Positions 5,129 through 21,186 of a DNA stretch of 36,636 nucleotides are shown in pieces. How positions within the stretch are numbered: the first letter of the stretch is position 1; every line of letters begins with the position of its first letter. The notes beneath the pieces were generated by a model. The model worked only from the letters and a program-made list of their open reading frames with translations, did not search any database and was not told the origin of the DNA. The position numbers and the translations under genes were made by a program. The stretch lies in contig CAIKHO010000075.1 in the NCBI GenBank assembly GCA_903827245.1, positions 1 through 36,636 of the forward strand, given 5' to 3'. Source of the stretch: an uncultured Opitutia bacterium. GTDB taxonomy: Bacteria; Verrucomicrobiota; Verrucomicrobiia; Opitutales; Opitutaceae.

Positions 5129-5172
5129 CTTCGGCGAAGGCAAGCCTTCCGATTTCGAAACACGCCTGCGTG

Positions 5173-5286
5173 GTAGGGCGCGGGTTCCACTCCGCGCCGG
5201 GCACAGGGACGGGCCCTTTCCGCCAATGAGCGACCCCGTCCGGGCTCCAAGGACATTCCCGGCGCGGAACGGAGTCCGCGCCCTAC
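5173..5286. repeat. BIME-like pair of REP hairpins, family 2
   Basis: Left unit (+): GTAG-GGCGCGG-(8 nt)-CCGCGCC at 5173-5198, a perfect 7-bp stem. Right unit (-): GTAG at 5286-5283, then an 8-bp perfect stem GGCGCGGA-(6 nt)-TCCGCGCC over 5282-5261. The two units are about 85% identical and face each other across 62 bp. Confidence 0.85.
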
Positions 5287-5369
5287 CGGGCCGGCATTTT
5301 TTGAATTAGCGCGGTCCGCCCCTAACGGCAGCTTTACGCCAGCGCGGAAATGCGCACATTATCACTGTC

Positions 5370-8216: not shown

Positions 8217-8296
8217 TTTTTAGCCACAGATTGCACGGATGGACTCAGATGGTCGCATGCGTTATCCGTGCCCATCCGTGCAATCTGTGGCCAAAA
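8217..8296. repeat. Long inverted repeat, family B (copy 1)
   Basis: A perfect 20-bp inverted repeat: 8223-8242 reads gccacagattgcacggatgg and 8272-8291 is its exact complement; similarity extends 5 bp further out. The family also occurs at 33734-33829. It fills the gap between the SDR stop and the rlmM-like start. Confidence 0.85.
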
Positions 8297-10663: not shown

Positions 10664-10705
10664 GATACGAGTCCGGGATGTGACGGTCGTTGGAGGTGTC
10701 GAAAC

Positions 10706-10765
10706 GTAGGGGCGTCGCTTGACGACGCCCGGCTCGGATGGAACGTCACCAAGCGACGTCCCTAC
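10706..10765. repeat. BIME-like pair of REP hairpins, family 3
   Basis: Left unit (+): GTAG-GGGCGTCG-(5 nt)-CGACGCCC at 10706-10730, a perfect 8-bp stem. Right unit (-): GTAG at 10765-10762, followed by GGACGTCG-CTTGG-TGACGTTCC with a bulge, down to 10740. The units share the words GTAGGG and CGTCGCTTG and face each other 9 bp apart. It lies about 50 bp upstream of the glycerate kinase start. Confidence 0.85.
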
Positions 10766-10816
10766 ACTTCGTTTTTCGCCTTTTAACCCTCGTGCGCCCG
10801 CGACACGTTCTCGGTG

Positions 10817-12058
10817 ATGCGTGTCTTGCTCGCCTTCGACAAGTTCAAGGACTCCCTCACGGCTCTTGAAGCATGCAAGCTCACCGCGGCCGTCCTGCGC
10901 AGCCGCCATGGCGACTGGTCGCTGGACCTCTGCCCGCTCGCCGACGGCGGCGAAGGTTTCGCCGAAATCCTGACCCACGCCGCGGGCGGAACCATGACGC
11001 GGCTCTCCGTCACCGGCCCGCGCGGCAATCCGATCGAGGCCGCTTTCGGCCTCGTCTCCCTCGGTCGCATCCCGCCCGCGGCCCGCAGTCTGCTCGCCCT
11101 CGATTTCCCCGTTCCCCCGCGCGTCACGCCCGGTCCCTCGTCCCCCGTCCCCAGTCCCCCGCAATCCGCCCCTCGCCCCTCGCCCCTCGGCGGCGACGCC
11201 GCCGTAGCGGTCATCGAGATGGCCTCTGCCAGCGGCCTGGCTCTGCTTGCGGCAGAACTCCGCGACCCGTGGCAGACCACCACGCAGGGTACCGGCCAGC
11301 TCATCCGCGCCGCCGCGGAGGCGGGCGCAGCCGGCGTGCTGCTCGGCGTGGGTGGCAGCGCGACCAACGATCTCGGGCTCGGCGCACTCGACGCCCTCGG
11401 GCTCGAATTCCGCACCGGCACGGACGAAAAAAAATCCCCGCCGTTCCCCGCCGATTGGGCCGGCATCACCCGGATCGCCGGCGCTGTCACCGGCACGATC
11501 CCACCGATCCGCATCGCATGCGACGTCACCAATCCCCTCCTCGGCCCGAACGGCGCCGCGGCCATCTACGGACCGCAAAAAGGACTGAAGCCCGGCGACC
11601 TGCGCCGGATCGAGCACGAGGCCGCCCGCCTCGCGCTCATGCTGTGCTCCCATTGCCGACAGCCCGATACCCTCATGGACGCACCCGGCGCCGGTGCGGC
11701 CGGCGGGCTGCCCTTCGGCCTGATGACCGCCGCCCGCGCCAAGTTGTTGCCGGGCTTCGACCTGGTCTCCGCGTGGCTCGATCTCGAGGCCAAGATCGCC
11801 GCGGCCGACCTCGTGATCACCGGTGAGGGCCGCTTCGACGAAAGCTCACTCAGCGGCAAAGGCCCCGGTGCCGTCGCCGCGCGCGCCCGCGCGCTGGGCA
11901 AACCCGTCCACGTCTTCGCGGGCCAGGTCACCGCCGCGGCCCGCGACGGCCTGAAGCTTCACCCCATCACGCCCGCGGGCACACCGCTACCCGAGGCCTT
12001 GCGTGACGCCGGCGTGAATCTCACCGCCGCGGTGCAGGCGGCAATTGGCAATTTGTAG
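10817..12058 (+). CDS. Glycerate 2-kinase (GlxK/GarK family)
   Basis: 413 residues from the ATG at 10817 (a GTG one codon upstream is also possible). Family signatures are clear: MRVLLAFDKFKDSLTA at the N terminus, LADGGEGFAEIL (41-52), LLGVGGSATNDLGLGAL (175-191), ACDVTNPLLGPNGAAAIYGPQKG and the C-terminal ITGEGRFDESSLSGKGP. The enzyme phosphorylates D-glycerate to 2-phosphoglycerate, feeding glyoxylate or sugar-acid catabolism into glycolysis. It is longer than usual (about 380): residues about 84-126 are an extra Pro/Ser/Arg-rich stretch encoded by repetitive C-rich DNA. The 3' end runs into an intergenic repeat that supplies the last residues (AIGNL) and the stop. Confidence 0.9.
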   Translation: MRVLLAFDKFKDSLTALEACKLTAAVLRSRHGDWSLDLCPLADGGEGFAEILTHAAGGTMTRLSVTGPRGNPIEAAFGLVSLGRIPPAARSLLALDFPVPPRVTPGPSSPVPSPPQSAPRPSPLGGDAAVAVIEMASASGLALLAAELRDPWQTTTQGTGQLIRAAAEAGAAGVLLGVGGSATNDLGLGALDALGLEFRTGTDEKKSPPFPADWAGITRIAGAVTGTIPPIRIACDVTNPLLGPNGAAAIYGPQKGLKPGDLRRIEHEAARLALMLCSHCRQPDTLMDAPGAGAAGGLPFGLMTAARAKLLPGFDLVSAWLDLEAKIAAADLVITGEGRFDESSLSGKGPGAVAARARALGKPVHVFAGQVTAAARDGLKLHPITPAGTPLPEALRDAGVNLTAAVQAAIGNL

Positions 12059-12192
12059 TTGGTAGTTGGGAATTGGGAGTTTGTAATCGGGACTTGGCAA
12101 TTGGCAGTTGGTAATTTGGCACGGAGCTTCGGCGCCGCTTACGGGTTTCGCAGCAACGACAAATTCCCAACTACAAACGACCAACTACGAAT
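12050..12192. repeat. Word-like inverted repeat (TTGGTAGTTGG type)
   Basis: The left arm (12050-12119) is a degenerate array of 7-10 bp words such as GTAGTTG, GGAATTGG, GGCAATTGG. The right arm (12157-12192) is the inverse (AATTCCCAACTACAAACG, CCAACTAC). It overlaps the 3' end of the glycerate kinase gene by 9 bp and ends 14 bp before the NamZ start. Confidence 0.75.
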
Positions 12193-12206
12193 CTCCTCCC
12201 CTGCAC

Positions 12207-14856: not shown

Positions 14857-16014
14857 ATGAATCGCAAACTTCGTTTTGGCATGATCGGCGGCGGGCGCGG
14901 CGCCTTCATCGGCGCGGTCCACCGCATTGCCGCCGTCATGGACGGCCAGGCCGAGCTGGTGGCCGGCGCGTTCTCGTCCGACCCCACCCGCTCCCGGGCC
15001 TCGGGCGCGGATCTTTTCCTCGATCCGTCGCGGGTCTACGGCAGCTACCAGGAGATGGCCCGCGTCGAGGCGAAGCTGCCGGCCGACCGCCGTCTCGACT
15101 TCGTCGTCATCGTCACGCCGAACCACCAGCATTTCCCGCCCGCGAAGCTGTTCCTCGAGAGCGGCTTCAATGTGGTCTGCGACAAGCCGGCGACCTTCAA
15201 CCTCGCCGAGGCCAGGCAGCTCCGCGCCGTCGTCCGGAAGACAAAGAAGATCTTCGTCCTCACCCACAACTATACCGGCAACGCGATGGTGAAGCAGGCC
15301 CGCGACCTGGTGCGCAGCGGCGCGCTGGGCGACATCCGCAAGGTCGTCGCCGAGTACCCGCAGGGCTGGCTCAGCACGCTGCTGGAGAAAACCGGGCAGA
15401 AGCAGGCCGGCTGGCGCACCGACCCGAAGCGCAGCGGCGCCGCCGGCTGCATCGGCGACATTGGCACGCATGCCGAGAGCCTCGCCCGCTACATCACCGG
15501 GCTGCATATCGACTCGCTTTGCGCCGACCTCACAACCTTCGTGAAGGGCCGCAAGCTCGACGACGACGGTAACATCCTCGTTCGCTTCAAGGGCGGCGCG
15601 AAAGGGATCATCCACGCGTCGCAGATCAGCGTGGGCGACGAGAACAACCTCAACATCCGCGTCTACGGCACGAAGGCCTCCATCGAGTGGCACCAGGAGC
15701 ATCCCAACGAGCTCATCGTGAAATTCCCTGACCAGCCGCGGCAGATCTGGCGCCGGGGCAACGGCTACGTCGGCGCGAATGCGGCGCGCTTCACGCGCAT
15801 CCCCGCCGGCCATCCCGAGGCCTACCTCGAGGCCTTCGGCAACATCTACCGCGAGGCGTTCCGCGCGATCACGGCCGAGGTTCACGGTCGGCGCGCCCCC
15901 AAGCCCCTCGATTTCCCCACGATCGACGACGGCGTCGAGGGCATGGCCTTCATCGAGACGGCCGTGAAGTCCTCGAAGCTCGGGGCGAAGTGGGTGAAGT
16001 TCCCTAAACTGTAG
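14857..16014 (+). CDS. Gfo/Idh/MocA family NAD(P)-dependent oxidoreductase
   Basis: 385 residues. The N-terminal Rossmann domain begins [23 protein letters not shown] (GxGGGxGxxxG, residues 8-19). The family E/D-K-P motif appears as CDKPATF (Asp109, Lys110, Pro111), and the catalytic-site motif as [10 protein letters not shown] (Asp201, His205). The C-terminal alpha/beta domain includes [20 protein letters not shown]. These enzymes oxidise or reduce sugars, inositols or their derivatives. The ending WVKFPKL follows [17 protein letters not shown], typical of dehydrogenases of this family. Probably co-transcribed with the upstream isomerase-like gene. Confidence 0.88.
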
Positions 16015-16112
16015 GTTTCGCGCCGAGACGCTAAGCCGCAGAGAGGGATCGTTTCAGGGTGCCGGATCCAATTCACGGTCTTCTCCGTGACTCGGCGCCT
16101 CGGCGCGAAACC
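16014..16112. repeat. Inverted repeat between convergent genes (TTTCGCGCCGAGACGC type)
   Basis: Left arm ggtttcgcgccgagacgc (16014-16031); right arm 16089-16112 is its near-complement (GCCTCGGCGCGAAACC). It starts in the stop codon region of the oxidoreductase and ends 12 bp before the stop of the minus-strand msrB. It could serve as a bidirectional terminator hairpin. Confidence 0.75.
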
Positions 16113-16818: not shown

Positions 16819-16939
16819 CGGATTTTTTGGCTACGAAAAGGCACGAAAAGATCCGGATGATTTGGTGTCTGAACCCTCAATCCGTTCCGAATGGTTCCTA
16901 TCGCGTCATTTCGTGCCTTTATCGTGGCCAAAAAATCCG
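16819..16939. repeat. Long inverted repeat, family A (copy 2)
   Basis: Left arm 16819-16856 (CGGATTTTTTGGCTACGAAA, AGGCACGAAAAG) and right arm 16902-16939 are inverse copies. Arms and spacer (GTGTCTGAAC, TTCCGAATGGTT) match the element at 2677-2802. It occupies most of the gap between msrB and xseA. Confidence 0.8.
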
Positions 16940-16958: not shown

Positions 16959-18245
16959 CTACTCCGCCCGCAGGGGAGCCGTGCCGTCGGCAAACTCGGC
17001 GGTGAGTTTCTGGCCGGTACGCACTCCGGCCCGCCGCGGCACGGGCCGGTTTTTTTCATCGCGGATGATTGCAAAGCCGCGGTTCAGCACCGAGGCGGGA
17101 CTGACAGACTGCAGGCGCTTCCACAGCGCCAGCAGCCGCTGCGACTCGAGCTGCACGCGGGTCTCCGGCGAATGCCGCGCCTGCCGGGCGCGCGCGTCCG
17201 CCAGTTGCTGCCGCCGCAGCTGAAGCGACGCCCGCAAGGCCGACGCGAGCCGGTTGGAAAAATCGTCGAGCCGCAGGTAGCCCTGCTCGATCTGCGCGGT
17301 GGGTGTGAGCAGCCTCAGCCGCGAACGCGCGTGGTCGAGCCGCTCCGCCGCCTGCTGCACCGCCCCTTCCACCGCCAGCTTCATGCCGGCCCGGGCCTGC
17401 ACGGCGCGCTCGAGGCTGGCCACGAAATGGCTCGTGATAAGCTCGGCTGCCGCACTCGGCGTCTCGGCCCGGGCGTCCGCCGCGAAGTCGCACAGCGTGA
17501 AATCGATCTCGTGGCCCACGGCGGAAATCATCGGCACTTTACAGGCCGCGACGGCGCGCACGAGCGCTTCCTCGTTGAAGGCCCACAGGTCCTCCAGGCT
17601 TCCGCCCCCGCGGCCGATGACCAGCAGGTCGAAGATCTCCAGCTCCTGCGCGACGCGCAGCATCTCGGTCATCTCCGCCGCCGCACCCTCGCCCTGCACC
17701 CGGGCGGGCAGCACGACCACCCGGCCGCGCCAGCCCCGGCGCAGGAGGATGCGCAGGAAATCCTGCACCGCCGCCCCGGTGGGCGACGTGATGAATCCCA
17801 CCGTGGCCGGCATCGCCGGGACCGGCCGCTTCCTTTCGGCGTCAAACAGGCCTTCCCCGGCCAGCCGGCGCTTCAGCGCCTCGAACTCGCGCTGCAGCCG
17901 GCCCACGCCGTCCTCAACCACTGCGCGCACGATCAGCTGGTACTGCCCGCGCTGCTCGTAGACCCCGATCTCCCCGTAGAGCAATACCTGGAGCCCGTCG
18001 CGCAGCGTCACGGACTGCCGGGCCGCGTCGCCGCGGAACAACACCGCGCTGAGCTGCGCACCCGCATCCTTCAGCGAGAAATAAACGTGTCCGCTTGCCT
18101 GCGCCCGCAAGTTCGAGACCTCGCCGCGGACCCAGCCCGGCCGCAGGCCGCCCTCGAGCAGCACCTTCACGCGGCGGGTGAACTCGGTGACCGACTCGAT
18201 CCGGTCGGACGCCTCGGCAAAGAGCGTCTCGTCGGAAGATTTCAT
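16959..18245 (-). CDS. xseA: Exodeoxyribonuclease VII large subunit
   Basis: 428 residues from the ATG at 18245. N-terminal OB-fold (about 17-110: VTEFTRRVKVLLEGG, WVRGEVSNLRAQASGHVYFSLKD), catalytic domain with VGFITSPTGAAVQDFLRIL, VIGRGGGSLEDLWAFNEE (209-226) and VGHEIDFTLCDFAADARAETPSAAAE (243-268), then a long coiled coil (about 270-390) and the C-terminal VLNRGFAII segment. This is the full XseA architecture at nearly full length (E. coli 456). It degrades single-stranded DNA together with XseB; no xseB is visible in the window. The start overlaps the stop of the upstream VTT gene by 4 bp (ATGA), so the two are translationally coupled. Confidence 0.93.
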   Translation of the reverse strand: MKSSDETLFAEASDRIESVTEFTRRVKVLLEGGLRPGWVRGEVSNLRAQASGHVYFSLKDAGAQLSAVLFRGDAARQSVTLRDGLQVLLYGEIGVYEQRGQYQLIVRAVVEDGVGRLQREFEALKRRLAGEGLFDAERKRPVPAMPATVGFITSPTGAAVQDFLRILLRRGWRGRVVVLPARVQGEGAAAEMTEMLRVAQELEIFDLLVIGRGGGSLEDLWAFNEEALVRAVAACKVPMISAVGHEIDFTLCDFAADARAETPSAAAELITSHFVASLERAVQARAGMKLAVEGAVQQAAERLDHARSRLRLLTPTAQIEQGYLRLDDFSNRLASALRASLQLRRQQLADARARQARHSPETRVQLESQRLLALWKRLQSVSPASVLNRGFAIIRDEKNRPVPRRAGVRTGQKLTAEFADGTAPLRAE

Positions 18246-18946
18246 GCCACGGCTTTTTTCCGGGCGTAGTGTTTCCGCAGGAGGTGCGTCCCCGCCACAA
18301 TGGCCACGATCAAGCCGCCCGCCATCAGGATCATCTTGCCCTTGCCATGCACCAACGCGTCGCCAAACACCACAAAGGCCGCATTTTGTGGCAGGCAGAA
18401 GAGCAGCGACAGCGCGAGGCACCTCCCAAACGGCACCTCGCCCAAACCCATTAGGTAGTTCTGCACGCAAAAAGGAATGCCGGGGGTAAGCCGGAGGATG
18501 ACAATCAAGTCGGTGGTGTCGCCCGCCTCCACCTTGGGCAGCTCATAACCCAGACGGACGATCAGTTTCTCGAGGAGCGGGCGCAAGGCGCGGCGGGCCA
18601 AGAAATAGGTCAGGATGAAATTCACCATGAGCGCGAGCGAGGTAAACAGGACCACGTTGCCCATACCGAGCCGTTCGCCGAAAGCCGGCCCAGCCGGCAG
18701 GATCAGCGTCAGAGTTGGGACACCGAATGCCGGCAAGACCGCAATGGCGGTGAAAAACGCCACCGGCCCGGCATTACGAATGACCGCCACGGCCCGGTCG
18801 ATCAGGGTGCCGCACTGCGCAATAAGCCCGCGGATGTCACCGCCGCTCACGGCCAGCACTGCCGCAATCAGCAAGACCGCGGCGATCACCGCGAGCTTGA
18901 TGAGGGGAAGTTTTTTCTTCTCGGCTGGAGCCACGGGCGCGGACAT
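18242..18946 (-). CDS. TVP38/TMEM64 family (VTT/DedA-like) membrane protein
   Basis: 234 residues from the ATG at 18946. One helix at 15-33, then the VTT domain: FFTAIAVLPAFGVPTLTLILPAGPAFG (64-90), VVLFTSLALMVNFILTYFLAR (98-118) and the diagnostic re-entrant loop ILRLTPGIPFCVQNYLMGLGEVPFG (150-174), followed by two more helices. Members act as lipid scramblases or in undecaprenyl-phosphate recycling or transport (family knowledge). It is followed, with a 4-bp overlap, by xseA. Confidence 0.85.
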   Translation of the reverse strand: MSAPVAPAEKKKLPLIKLAVIAAVLLIAAVLAVSGGDIRGLIAQCGTLIDRAVAVIRNAGPVAFFTAIAVLPAFGVPTLTLILPAGPAFGERLGMGNVVLFTSLALMVNFILTYFLARRALRPLLEKLIVRLGYELPKVEAGDTTDLIVILRLTPGIPFCVQNYLMGLGEVPFGRCLALSLLFCLPQNAAFVVFGDALVHGKGKMILMAGGLIVAIVAGTHLLRKHYARKKAVA

Positions 18947-19054
18947 GGGACCAGCCTGCGCACCCACGCGCGGCACCGTCAAGAACTCGCAATAGACCGC
19001 CCCTCCTATTTCCAATCGCTGGACCGATCCACAAACCGGGAGTGATGCAATATC

Positions 19055-19221
19055 GCGCAGGGACGCAAAGCCGCAGCGTAGAGGCAAATTTCACCCAGAG
19101 GCACGGAGGACACCGAGTCATTGGCCAATGATCGGACTCCGTGTCCTCCGTGCCTCTGTGTGAAATTCCGTGTTCCGGGTTCAACCTCCTGCCCTACTCC
19201 GCGGCTTTGCACCTCTGCGCG
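19055..19221. repeat. Doubly nested inverted repeat
   Basis: Inner arms of 33 bp (19087-19119 and 19135-19167; AATTTCACCCAGAGGCACGG and its near-inverse) surround a perfect palindrome CATTGGCCAATG (19119-19130). Outer arms of about 31 bp (19055-19085 and 19192-19221; GCAAAGCCGCAGCGTAG-like) belong to a different sequence family. It fills much of the 344-bp gap 18947-19290 between divergent genes. Confidence 0.85.
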
Positions 19222-19290
19222 AAATCGGATTGTTTGTCTCTCCACCCAAGCTTGCCGGGCCCGCGGCGTCCGGTTGGACTGGCCGGGCTC

Positions 19291-21186
19291 ATGACTGTCA
19301 CGCGCTCCCGGCTGCTCGTCCTGTTTGCCGCCCTGGCCTACGGACTGGCGCACCTGAGCTGGTATGCCAACACCCCGCTCGGCCAGGTACCGGTGCTGGA
19401 TGAGCGGGAAAACCTGATGCTGGCGGAACAGATCTCGCATGGCTCGCTCCCGCGCGAACCGTTTTATCGCGCGATGGGTTATCCCCTGCTGCTGGCCGGG
19501 CTGCGCGCCGGCGGGATTTCCGCGCTACAACTGCCGGGCGCCGCGCTGCTGCTCGGTGTCGGGCTGCACGCCATCGGGGCCTGCCTGGCCGCCGTGCTCG
19601 CGCAACGCTGGTTTGCCGACTTCCGCGCCGGCCTGATTGCCGGGCTGCTCTTCGCGCTCAATCCCGTCTTCGTGCACGATGCGACGCAACGGCTCGATAC
19701 CATGCTCGGCCTGGTCCTGTTCCTCGCGGGTTTGCTCTGCCTGAAATTGGAGCGCAACGAGCCCGGCCCGTGGCCACCCATCGGCGCCAGCTTTTTCTGG
19801 GCGCTGGCCGTGCTCACCCGACCGCAATTTCTCCCGGTCTGGCTCATCCTCCCCTTGATCTGGATCTGGCGGCATCGCTCGCGGACCGGTTTCGCCACGG
19901 TCATCGCGGCCATGGCCGTGGGTGGCAGCCTCTTCGCCGCCCAAGGGCTCTGGCAGCAGGCGGTCGACGGCGAGTTCCGCATCCTGCCCTGGCAGGGAGC
20001 CTACAATCTCTGGGCGGCCAACCAGCCGGGGGCGCATGGACGCTATTATTTCCAGACCGTCGACCTCTCCCATCCGGCGCAGAACGACAATCCCGCCAAA
20101 CTCGAATCCCTGGTCCTCTATGAACGGGAGACGGGGAAATCCACGGCCGACATCGACGCGATGAACCGCCACTGGCGCCAGCGATTTGTCACGTATGTCA
20201 CCCAGCATCCCGCCGCCTGGCTCGGCCTGCTGGCGCGCAAGACCTACGCGTTGTTGAACGACTGGGAGCAGTACAACAACAAGACCTATGCCTTCCACAA
20301 GGCGCGCTCGCCCTGGCTCCGCTGGAATCCGCTCGGCTGGGGCGTGCTGCTCGTGCTGGCCGTCGCCGGCGCCTGGCGGCTGCACGCCGGGGCCCCGTCC
20401 GTGGCGGCCGCCGCCGGCGTGGTCGCGGCCGGCTACGCGGCGGGGGTCGTGATGTTTTATGTGAGCGCGCGCTTCCGCCTGCCGCTCGCGGCCATGCTCT
20501 GCGTCCTTGGCGGCGGCGCCCTGGCCCGGCCGTGGTTCTGGCGCGGCCTCGCGCCCGGCCGGCCCCTGCTGCTCGCCGGCACCATGCTCGCCGCGGGGCT
20601 TCTCACGTTCTCCTTCTTCGACGACGTGCGGGACGCCCGACCGTTCGTGCAGGACCACCTGCTGGTCGCCCGCGCCGCGCAGACGGAGGGTGATGACAAC
20701 GAAGTATGGCGGCAGGCCCGGGCCGCCCTGGCGCTCGACGCCAGCCGGCGCGACGCGGACGAATTTGTGGTGACTAGCGGATTCAACCGGCAACTCGCGG
20801 AAGAGCTGCCGGCCATGGATCTTGCAGCCTGGCACGAGAGCGCGCGCCGCTTGCTGGCCGATGGTGGCGTCGCGGGACCGGCGGCCCGGGTGATTGCCGC
20901 GGCGCTCGAGCACGATACCGGCACGCTCGAGCTGCTCGCCGCCGGGAAGGGCTCCGCCGCGGCGGACGCGCTTGGGGCGCTCGTACTGACCGGCGCGGCC
21001 AGCAGCGACGAAGCAGCGCAGCTGCGGGCCGCGTCGTGGGAGGACGGCTCGACCCTCTTCCTTTTCGCCCGGCAGGAACTGGATCCAGCTCGCTTCGCCC
21101 TTTGGGCCCGCGAACATCAACCGCCCGGCTGGAACGAGGCCCTCGCGACCGTACGCGTGCGCCTCTTTCCCGGGCCCGTGAAATGA
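19291..21186 (+). CDS. Polytopic GT-C (GT39/ArnT-like) membrane glycosyltransferase, putative
   Basis: 631 residues from the ATG at 19291 (the frame is open further upstream, but that is repeat DNA). Multiple hydrophobic helices cover about residues 8-460. The first extracytoplasmic loop contains VLDERENLMLAEQISHG, with Asp37-Glu38 as the acidic pair typical of GT39/PMT enzymes, and ALNPVFVHDATQRLDTMLGL follows a later helix. Such enzymes transfer a sugar from a polyprenyl-phosphate donor to an acceptor outside the membrane. The last 150 residues are soluble, rich in Ala/Leu/Asp and helical (VWRQARAALALDASRRDADE), perhaps TPR-like. It overlaps the next gene by 4 bp (ATGA). Confidence 0.7.
   Translation: MTVTRSRLLVLFAALAYGLAHLSWYANTPLGQVPVLDERENLMLAEQISHGSLPREPFYRAMGYPLLLAGLRAGGISALQLPGAALLLGVGLHAIGACLAAVLAQRWFADFRAGLIAGLLFALNPVFVHDATQRLDTMLGLVLFLAGLLCLKLERNEPGPWPPIGASFFWALAVLTRPQFLPVWLILPLIWIWRHRSRTGFATVIAAMAVGGSLFAAQGLWQQAVDGEFRILPWQGAYNLWAANQPGAHGRYYFQTVDLSHPAQNDNPAKLESLVLYERETGKSTADIDAMNRHWRQRFVTYVTQHPAAWLGLLARKTYALLNDWEQYNNKTYAFHKARSPWLRWNPLGWGVLLVLAVAGAWRLHAGAPSVAAAAGVVAAGYAAGVVMFYVSARFRLPLAAMLCVLGGGALARPWFWRGLAPGRPLLLAGTMLAAGLLTFSFFDDVRDARPFVQDHLLVARAAQTEGDDNEVWRQARAALALDASRRDADEFVVTSGFNRQLAEELPAMDLAAWHESARRLLADGGVAGPAARVIAAALEHDTGTLELLAAGKGSAAADALGALVLTGAASSDEAAQLRAASWEDGSTLFLFARQELDPARFALWAREHQPPGWNEALATVRVRLFPGPVK

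Follow-up and report, generated by a model that had tools for sequence, protein, structure and literature searches.

Nested palindromes in an uncultured Opitutia bacterium are probably a decayed MITE-type element with IS1-type ends

The nested palindromes at positions 19038–19255 of the window (the whole stretch of 36,636 nucleotides that we analysed, from an uncultured Opitutia bacterium) are one decayed, gene-less copy of a repeated element. We consider it probable, at about 0.8, that this is a non-autonomous element of the MITE type, about 220 bp long, with IS1-type ends and two hairpins inside, which was moved in trans. The family has defined ends and target duplications, it is dispersed in the genome, it is absent from orthologous sites in a congener, an IS1-type transposase with the same ends occurs in the same order of bacteria, and both kinds of hairpin are also found alone.

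Anatomy of the window copy

From left to right, the window copy consists of an end repeat, an outer arm, a spacer, an inner arm, a loop, a second inner arm, a second spacer, a second outer arm and an eroded end; the parts are given on the plus strand, except for the two right-hand arms, which are on the minus strand. The left terminal inverted repeat (19038–19054, GGGAGTGATGCAATATC) is degenerate, with 12 of 17 bases agreeing with the consensus GGTCGTGGTACAATTTC, and it runs into the left outer arm (19051–19078), a GCGCAGAG-type hairpin arm that is 5 edits away from the consensus of solo outer hairpins and 11 from the inner consensus. A spacer of 8 nt (19079–19086) separates this from the left inner arm (19087–19119), a hairpin arm of the CACAGAG type that differs from the inner consensus by 2 edits and from the outer consensus by 8. 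Beyond the loop are the right inner arm (19135–19167), a spacer of 29 nt (19168–19196; consensus CCGGGTTCCGAGCCCAACCTCCTGCCTTG), the right outer arm (19197–19224) and the eroded right end (19225–19255, the limit being approximate), where other copies have CCGGCCTGGAAGGATTGATCCCAAACTGTACCACGACC. The best match to a right end in the window copy reaches only 13 of 27 positions and is misplaced; the right end is gone and no target duplication is visible.

An earlier note on this DNA had described two palindrome families, one nested in the other around a perfect palindrome of 12 bp. The arms are real: the inner arms, of 33 nt each, are 94% complementary (19087–19119 versus 19135–19167), and the outer arms are 78% complementary in a wider call of 37 nt (19045–19081 versus 19194–19230), their core being set at about 19051–19078 and 19197–19224. 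They are not concentric, however. The inner hairpin is centred at about 19127 and the outer one at about 19137.5, so that the inner hairpin is off-centre, 8 nt from the outer arm on the left and 29 nt on the right. The central palindrome also exists, but as read from the sequence it is 14 bp long (TCATTGGCCAATGA, 19118–19131, in the inner loop, without a strand) and private to the window copy, being absent from all 25 of the other aligned loops.

Copies in the same genome

We found at least 69 segments matching a 201-bp stretch of the window in the 3.55-Mb genome to which it belongs (G000; 40 of 97 candidates were scored), and at least 40 separate places hold the unit, whole or partial (38 fetched stretches plus the window copy). 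Further relatives (L259, L270, L272 and L329) came from patterns of the arms and ends. With up to 3 mismatches allowed, the two arm patterns had 38 and 27 matches and the reversed-pattern controls had 0 and 0; because the matches are repeated in this genome and backward patterns give none, the nested arms are not a product of chance.

The 26 best copies have the same order of parts and a nearly constant layout in the alignment, which indicates that the unit was copied as a whole. The right half is the most constant, above all the right spacer and the right outer arm, and many copies lack the left half or have it in rearranged form; by eye, the left outer arm is kept in about 20 of the 26. Read by eye, the left end is joined directly to the inner arm in two copies (L018 and L028) and in one from the congener G002 (L160), all three being without the left outer arm, and the right arm of L046 is a hybrid. 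These four have the appearance of recombinants between like arms. Many copies are old, since just 116 of the 325 pairs of spacers among the 26 composites are significantly alike at E 1e-3.

The inner loop is oriented one way in 14 of the 26 aligned copies (L001 and L009–L033) and the other way in 8, with 4 being ambiguous or having a variant loop. It is possible that the inner arms are the site of recurrent inversion, by recombination or template switching. Loop orientation requires 7 changes on a tree of the copies, in which almost no branch is supported (2 of 36 inner branches are starred), too weak a tree to count inversions or to order insertion against deletion.

Terminal repeats and target duplications

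The better-kept copies end in terminal inverted repeats (GGTCGTGGTACARTTT) and are flanked by target duplications of 8 bp. Alignment of the flanks shows the ends, which are GGTCGTGGTACAATTTC on the left and terminate in CAAACTGTACCACGACC on the right. Of 32 copies that we examined, 19 pass the thresholds for both ends, which were chosen after the ends of 32 copies had already been inspected (L329 was added to the thresholded set and L270, with 3 of 8, was dropped), and 17 of these 19 copies span 185–227 bp. The 8-mers flanking an element are identical at 7–8 of 8 positions in 8 of the 19 two-ended copies, compared to 0 of 342 cross-copy pairs, and mean identity is 5.3 within copies versus 2.2 across copies (permutation p = 5e-5). 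Without thresholds, 7 of the 32 copies agree at 7–8 positions. The duplication is exact in four copies (L013, L018, L024 and L041), and 11 of the 19 match at 6 positions or fewer, including L040 (4 of 8); L043 also has 4 of 8. By eye, L012 would have an exact 8-mer too if its end were moved two bases outward, and it is uncounted here.

Orthologous sites in a congener

The window copy is located in a gap between a gene for a VTT-domain membrane protein (18242–18946, minus strand; Pfam PF09335, 1e-10) and an open reading frame of 631 amino acids (19291–21186, plus strand), which has no match in Pfam and whose DNA is 75% conserved in G002. A stretch covering most of this gap (18991–19270, without a strand) has no counterpart at the orthologous G002 site, which has 58 bp. 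We compared 47 loci of the window's genome to fetched stretches of G002, and the window to all of G002. Seven composite-family sites could be aligned on both flanks, and at five of these the element is missing in G002 (the window, L010, L011, L015 and L032). At the L031 site a partial copy is common to the two genomes, and L042 (G000:C87) and L160 (G002:C7:296–430) are at an orthologous site as copies in opposite orientations. Intergenic divergence from G002 is too great for duplications to be read off the empty sites. At two places (L202:12371–12532 and L221:2680–2805) G002 has other hairpins or GTAG-type repeats opposite a composite or solo hairpin of G000. Intergenic gaps may be hot spots of fast turnover.

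An intergenic position and a consensus that folds into a strong hairpin are also what a structured regulatory RNA or a terminator would have. We consider this extremely improbable, because the element is absent at the orthologous G002 site and scans of the window for Rfam families and tRNAs gave no match. Pairing is only weakly better within than between copies (p = 0.026 for the terminal repeats, 0.46 for the outer arms and 0.08 for the inner arms), and the gap is upstream of both neighbours, provided that the 631-aa frame is a gene, and thus not at a 3' end.

Solo hairpins and the origin of the nesting

Solo hairpins of each arm type are dispersed in both congeners. Our G002 sample of 804 kb, with contigs picked partly for containing matches, has 16 outer–outer hairpins, 8 inner–inner hairpins, 1 same-strand inner pair, 4 mixed pairs and 19 single arms, and there is no four-arm unit in it. 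Three of the mixed pairs are simple hairpins with intermediate arms and one is a partial copy of the unit (L160). The fetched loci of the window's own genome were picked by matches, so counts from them are not frequencies; they comprise 7 four-arm units, 18 three-arm units, 6 mixed pairs, 11 outer–outer hairpins, 3 inner–inner hairpins and 10 single arms. Among the outer–outer hairpins are L040, L043 and L259, together with L029, a composite with inner arms below threshold. When the loops of 50 two-arm hairpins were compared (these four included), only 2 of 1225 pairs were alike at E 1e-3, and one of these two pairs comes from an orthologous site. The sequence beyond the arms is hardly common to these hairpins, with no tag and just a weak ACCGG.

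At 16014–16112 the window has an outer-type hairpin that stands alone and has a loop of its own, and there are more inverted repeats at 2680–2800, 8218–8296, 12037–12199 and 16819–16939. By eye, those at 2680 and 8218 resemble both arms, with three CAC-type motifs spaced 8–10 nt apart. Palindromes that carry GTAG and are REP-like are present at 5154–5305 and 10700–10771, in a genome without a detected Y1 transposase.

The earlier note had read the nesting as the insertion of one element exactly at the centre of another, and had suggested that the elements target palindrome centres or each other. It looked to solo outer copies to decide the matter. Such copies exist: apart from the 16 outer–outer hairpins of G002, L040 and L043 are 142-bp outer copies that have the right spacer of the composite and no inner hairpin. 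The note had named a constant association of outer and inner arms as what would refute its reading, and such an association is not seen. Outer and inner arms are together only within the unit of about 220 bp with its own ends, and to this extent there are two families, as proposed. Repeated insertion of an inner element into outer centres, or mutual targeting, is nevertheless very improbable. The inner hairpin is off-centre in a layout that is nearly constant among aligned composites, and the 16 pairs of outer arms that face each other in the G002 sample all have no inner arm between them. Furthermore, spacers are common among composites (116 of 325 pairs) whereas the loops of solo hairpins are not (2 of 1225).

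An alignment of the inner and outer consensus arms has 29 columns, 20 of them in agreement, and both hairpins belong to one superfamily. This likeness would suit a history in which they are duplicates of one hairpin, the composite having formed by internal duplication and the uninterrupted forms by deletion. So would the copies whose left outer arm seems to have been removed by recombination of like arms (L018, L028 and L160), the hybrid L046, and the three G002 hairpins with arms intermediate between the types. On the other hand, each arm type has dispersed hairpins of its own in both congeners, and the window arms are near their own consensus (1–2 edits for inner arms, 3–5 for outer arms) and far from the other (8 and 10–11 edits, respectively). 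We therefore regard internal duplication as unlikely, though credible.

Other copies bear on what the ends enclose. L259 has full ends and outer arms but a different loop of 106 nt, and in L329 the ends and a right outer arm enclose a REP-like pair. Together with L040 and L043, these differing interiors indicate that the contents of the shell vary. The hairpins were most likely acquired by an IS1-type shell, and an IS1-type transposase then spread the composite. Within the unit, the inner hairpin is next to the left outer arm. This arrangement probably has a single origin that predates the divergence from G002, later copying having multiplied the whole unit, as suggested by the layout common to the copies and by two partial copies in G002.

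A candidate transposase

A genome from another family of the same order (G119) has a 2906-bp element with two such ends (L363:3791–6696). Its ends are GGTAGTGGTACAGTTTA and CAAACTGTACCACTACC, with an exact 8-bp duplication, TGTTCTTG, on both sides. The element codes for a 275-aa protein that matches Pfam DDE_Tnp_IS1 with 26.8 bits (cut-off 24.1) and the NCBIfam IS1 model with an E-value of 7e-17, but in the latter case with a score of 61.9, below the cut-off of 100. There are also weaker matches to IS6/IS240 models, and no solved structure matches the protein by sequence. Its passengers are an HTH/HigA-like frame, one or more unknown frames and a small lysine/glycine-rich protein.

The L363 protein matched 22 plasmid records, the best four with 54–59% identity over nearly the whole length, and three of these four are annotated as IS1 family transposase. 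Similar ends are located beside three of the four: the Methylocapsa record has a pair 3125 bp apart, without an 8-bp duplication, and the Mesorhizobium and Acidiphilium genes have one each. No such end was found beside the gene of the Hoeflea relative. Within the window's own family, 39 residues of a transposase C-terminus (59% identity) adjoin such an end in G014. Because the ends of the window's element match those of L363, which encodes an IS1-type transposase, we infer that a transposase of this type moved the shell in trans. The autonomous relative with matching ends was located solely in G119, and no IS1-type transposase was seen in the window's own genome in a search that covered the fetched loci only. 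We rejected an IS1595 transposase (PF12762) as the mobiliser: it is present in 4 of 20 genomes (G000, G002, G003 and G119) with no paired matching end there, and the G002 element has other ends (GGCGATAATATACTTGAC).

Many relatives have genes for Y1 transposases (43 of 57 genomes searched) and GTAG REPs are present in the window's own genome, as might be expected if the element were of the REP or REPIN type and owed its mobility to a RAYT (Y1) transposase. However, no Y1 transposase was found in this genome, there are no inner or outer arms near the best 30 Y1 loci of relatives, and two of the three Y1 loci in congeners have no arms nearby. The family also has terminal inverted repeats and 8-bp duplications, which Y1 enzymes are not known to make. 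Mobilisation by a RAYT is thus quite improbable.

Shells of the same type in other genomes

When as many as 2 mismatches are tolerated, 26 of 57 genomes have the end pattern, and it is clearly above the backward control in only three of them (G000, G003 and G025). Of 372 genomes of the order, 9 have a degenerate pattern without mismatches, in three cases within a coding frame. Among the exact matches in other families, those in L340 (inside a frame of 930 aa) and in L341 and L342 (inside one gene, which we take to be elongation factor Tu) look like chance.

We scanned for short shells in loci picked for the end pattern and in stretches of G003, G055, G353 and G025. The scan gave 30 rows, corresponding to 29 distinct shells (two overlap), in nine genomes (G000, G002, G003, G017, G025, G031, G033, G055 and G353) from seven genera. 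Duplications at 7–8 of 8 positions are seen in 19 rows, from G000, G003, G025, G055 and G353. The interiors of 20 of the 29 fold with z below −2 (60 shuffles each). By reading, the interiors in six genera have REP-like pairs, mostly tagged with GTAG, whose sequences differ from the window hairpins; among them, G353 has a TCATTGCGAG-type hairpin inside. L304 (G033) and L294 (G002) have no clear hairpin and no duplication.

Some of the enclosed repeats, of types found in G000 and G003, also occur outside shells. One type in G000 was seen 9 times in the G000 loci, twice within a shell, and 14 times in the G002 sample, always outside shells; of another type, 4 of the 7 copies in the G000 loci are enclosed by a shell, and the G002 sample has no copy. 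A type enclosed in G003 has 12 matches in 400 kb, of which 2 are within a pair of ends, 5 have one end and 5 have none, the five end-less copies forming one cluster in L392. G055 and G353 yielded few copies of the enclosed repeats, only one of which was outside a full shell, and 100 kb of G025 yielded none. Two further scans covered other contigs: the composite spacer pattern had one match, in an Acidobacteria MAG and without arms, which we took as chance, and one exact inner-arm sequence had no match in viral contigs.

Shells probably acquired hairpin repeats more than once, since in other genera different hairpin repeats are found inside such shells. We tentatively suggest that in six genera of this family IS1-type shells with 17-bp ends may have taken up REP-like hairpins of differing sequence and served as their carriers, in which case their transposase may have dispersed hairpins that otherwise depend on RAYTs or on other means. 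The spread of intergenic palindromic repeats is only partly understood; RAYTs have been proposed for GTAG REPs, and not for hairpin families that have no partner. IS1-type ends and target duplications around REP-like hairpins in several genera make a second vehicle visible, with a concrete pair of transposase and ends, and offer a reason why unrelated palindromes appear nested. If this is true, carrier shells would let hairpin repeats spread in RAYT-less genomes such as the window's.

Comparison with known systems

Text searches of the literature for the arm and end strings returned no title on bacterial repeats, and searches on Opitutus palindromes, nested MITEs, MITE/IS1/REP and ISMhu11 returned nothing relevant besides one paper (PMC6382973). 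The element resembles REPs, REPINs and RAYTs flanked by terminal inverted repeats, as described in PMC3733652, in being made of palindromic intergenic repeats, and other shells with the window's end type enclose GTAG-type pairs of REPs. It differs from REPs and REPINs in that the window hairpins have no GTAG tag next to the palindrome, there is no association with a Y1 transposase (none was detected in its own genome), and the ends are IS1-type.

The family also resembles MITEs. In PMC6382973, MITEs such as MITEAba12 are short, gene-less and dispersed, share terminal inverted repeats with an autonomous IS and have target duplications; MITEAba12 itself is 111–114 bp long with 9-bp duplications, and its partner is ISAba12. 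The window's family has terminal inverted repeats in 19 of 32 copies (in the window copy the left one alone, and degenerate) and target duplications in 8 of 19 (invisible in the window copy), and it is short, multicopy and dispersed over at least 40 places. Unlike MITEAba12 as presented there, the window element has an interior of hairpin repeats that also occur alone.

Some of the larger members of IS1 that have passengers have ends like those of this family: ends of the GGTAGTGG..CAGTTTG type are present as pairs in L363 and the Methylocapsa record and singly beside the Mesorhizobium and Acidiphilium genes, and L363 combines them with an 8-bp duplication and an IS1-type transposase. The window element is gene-less and about 220 bp long, whereas L363 has HTH/HigA-like and other passengers. 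The DDE transposase that characterises IS1 is found in L363 (above the cut-off in Pfam and below it in NCBIfam) and not in the window element. Duplications of 8–9 bp and ends starting with GGT, which are also IS1 characters, are both present, and an IS1 member with the end GGTGGTG and 8-bp duplications is described in PMC6382973.
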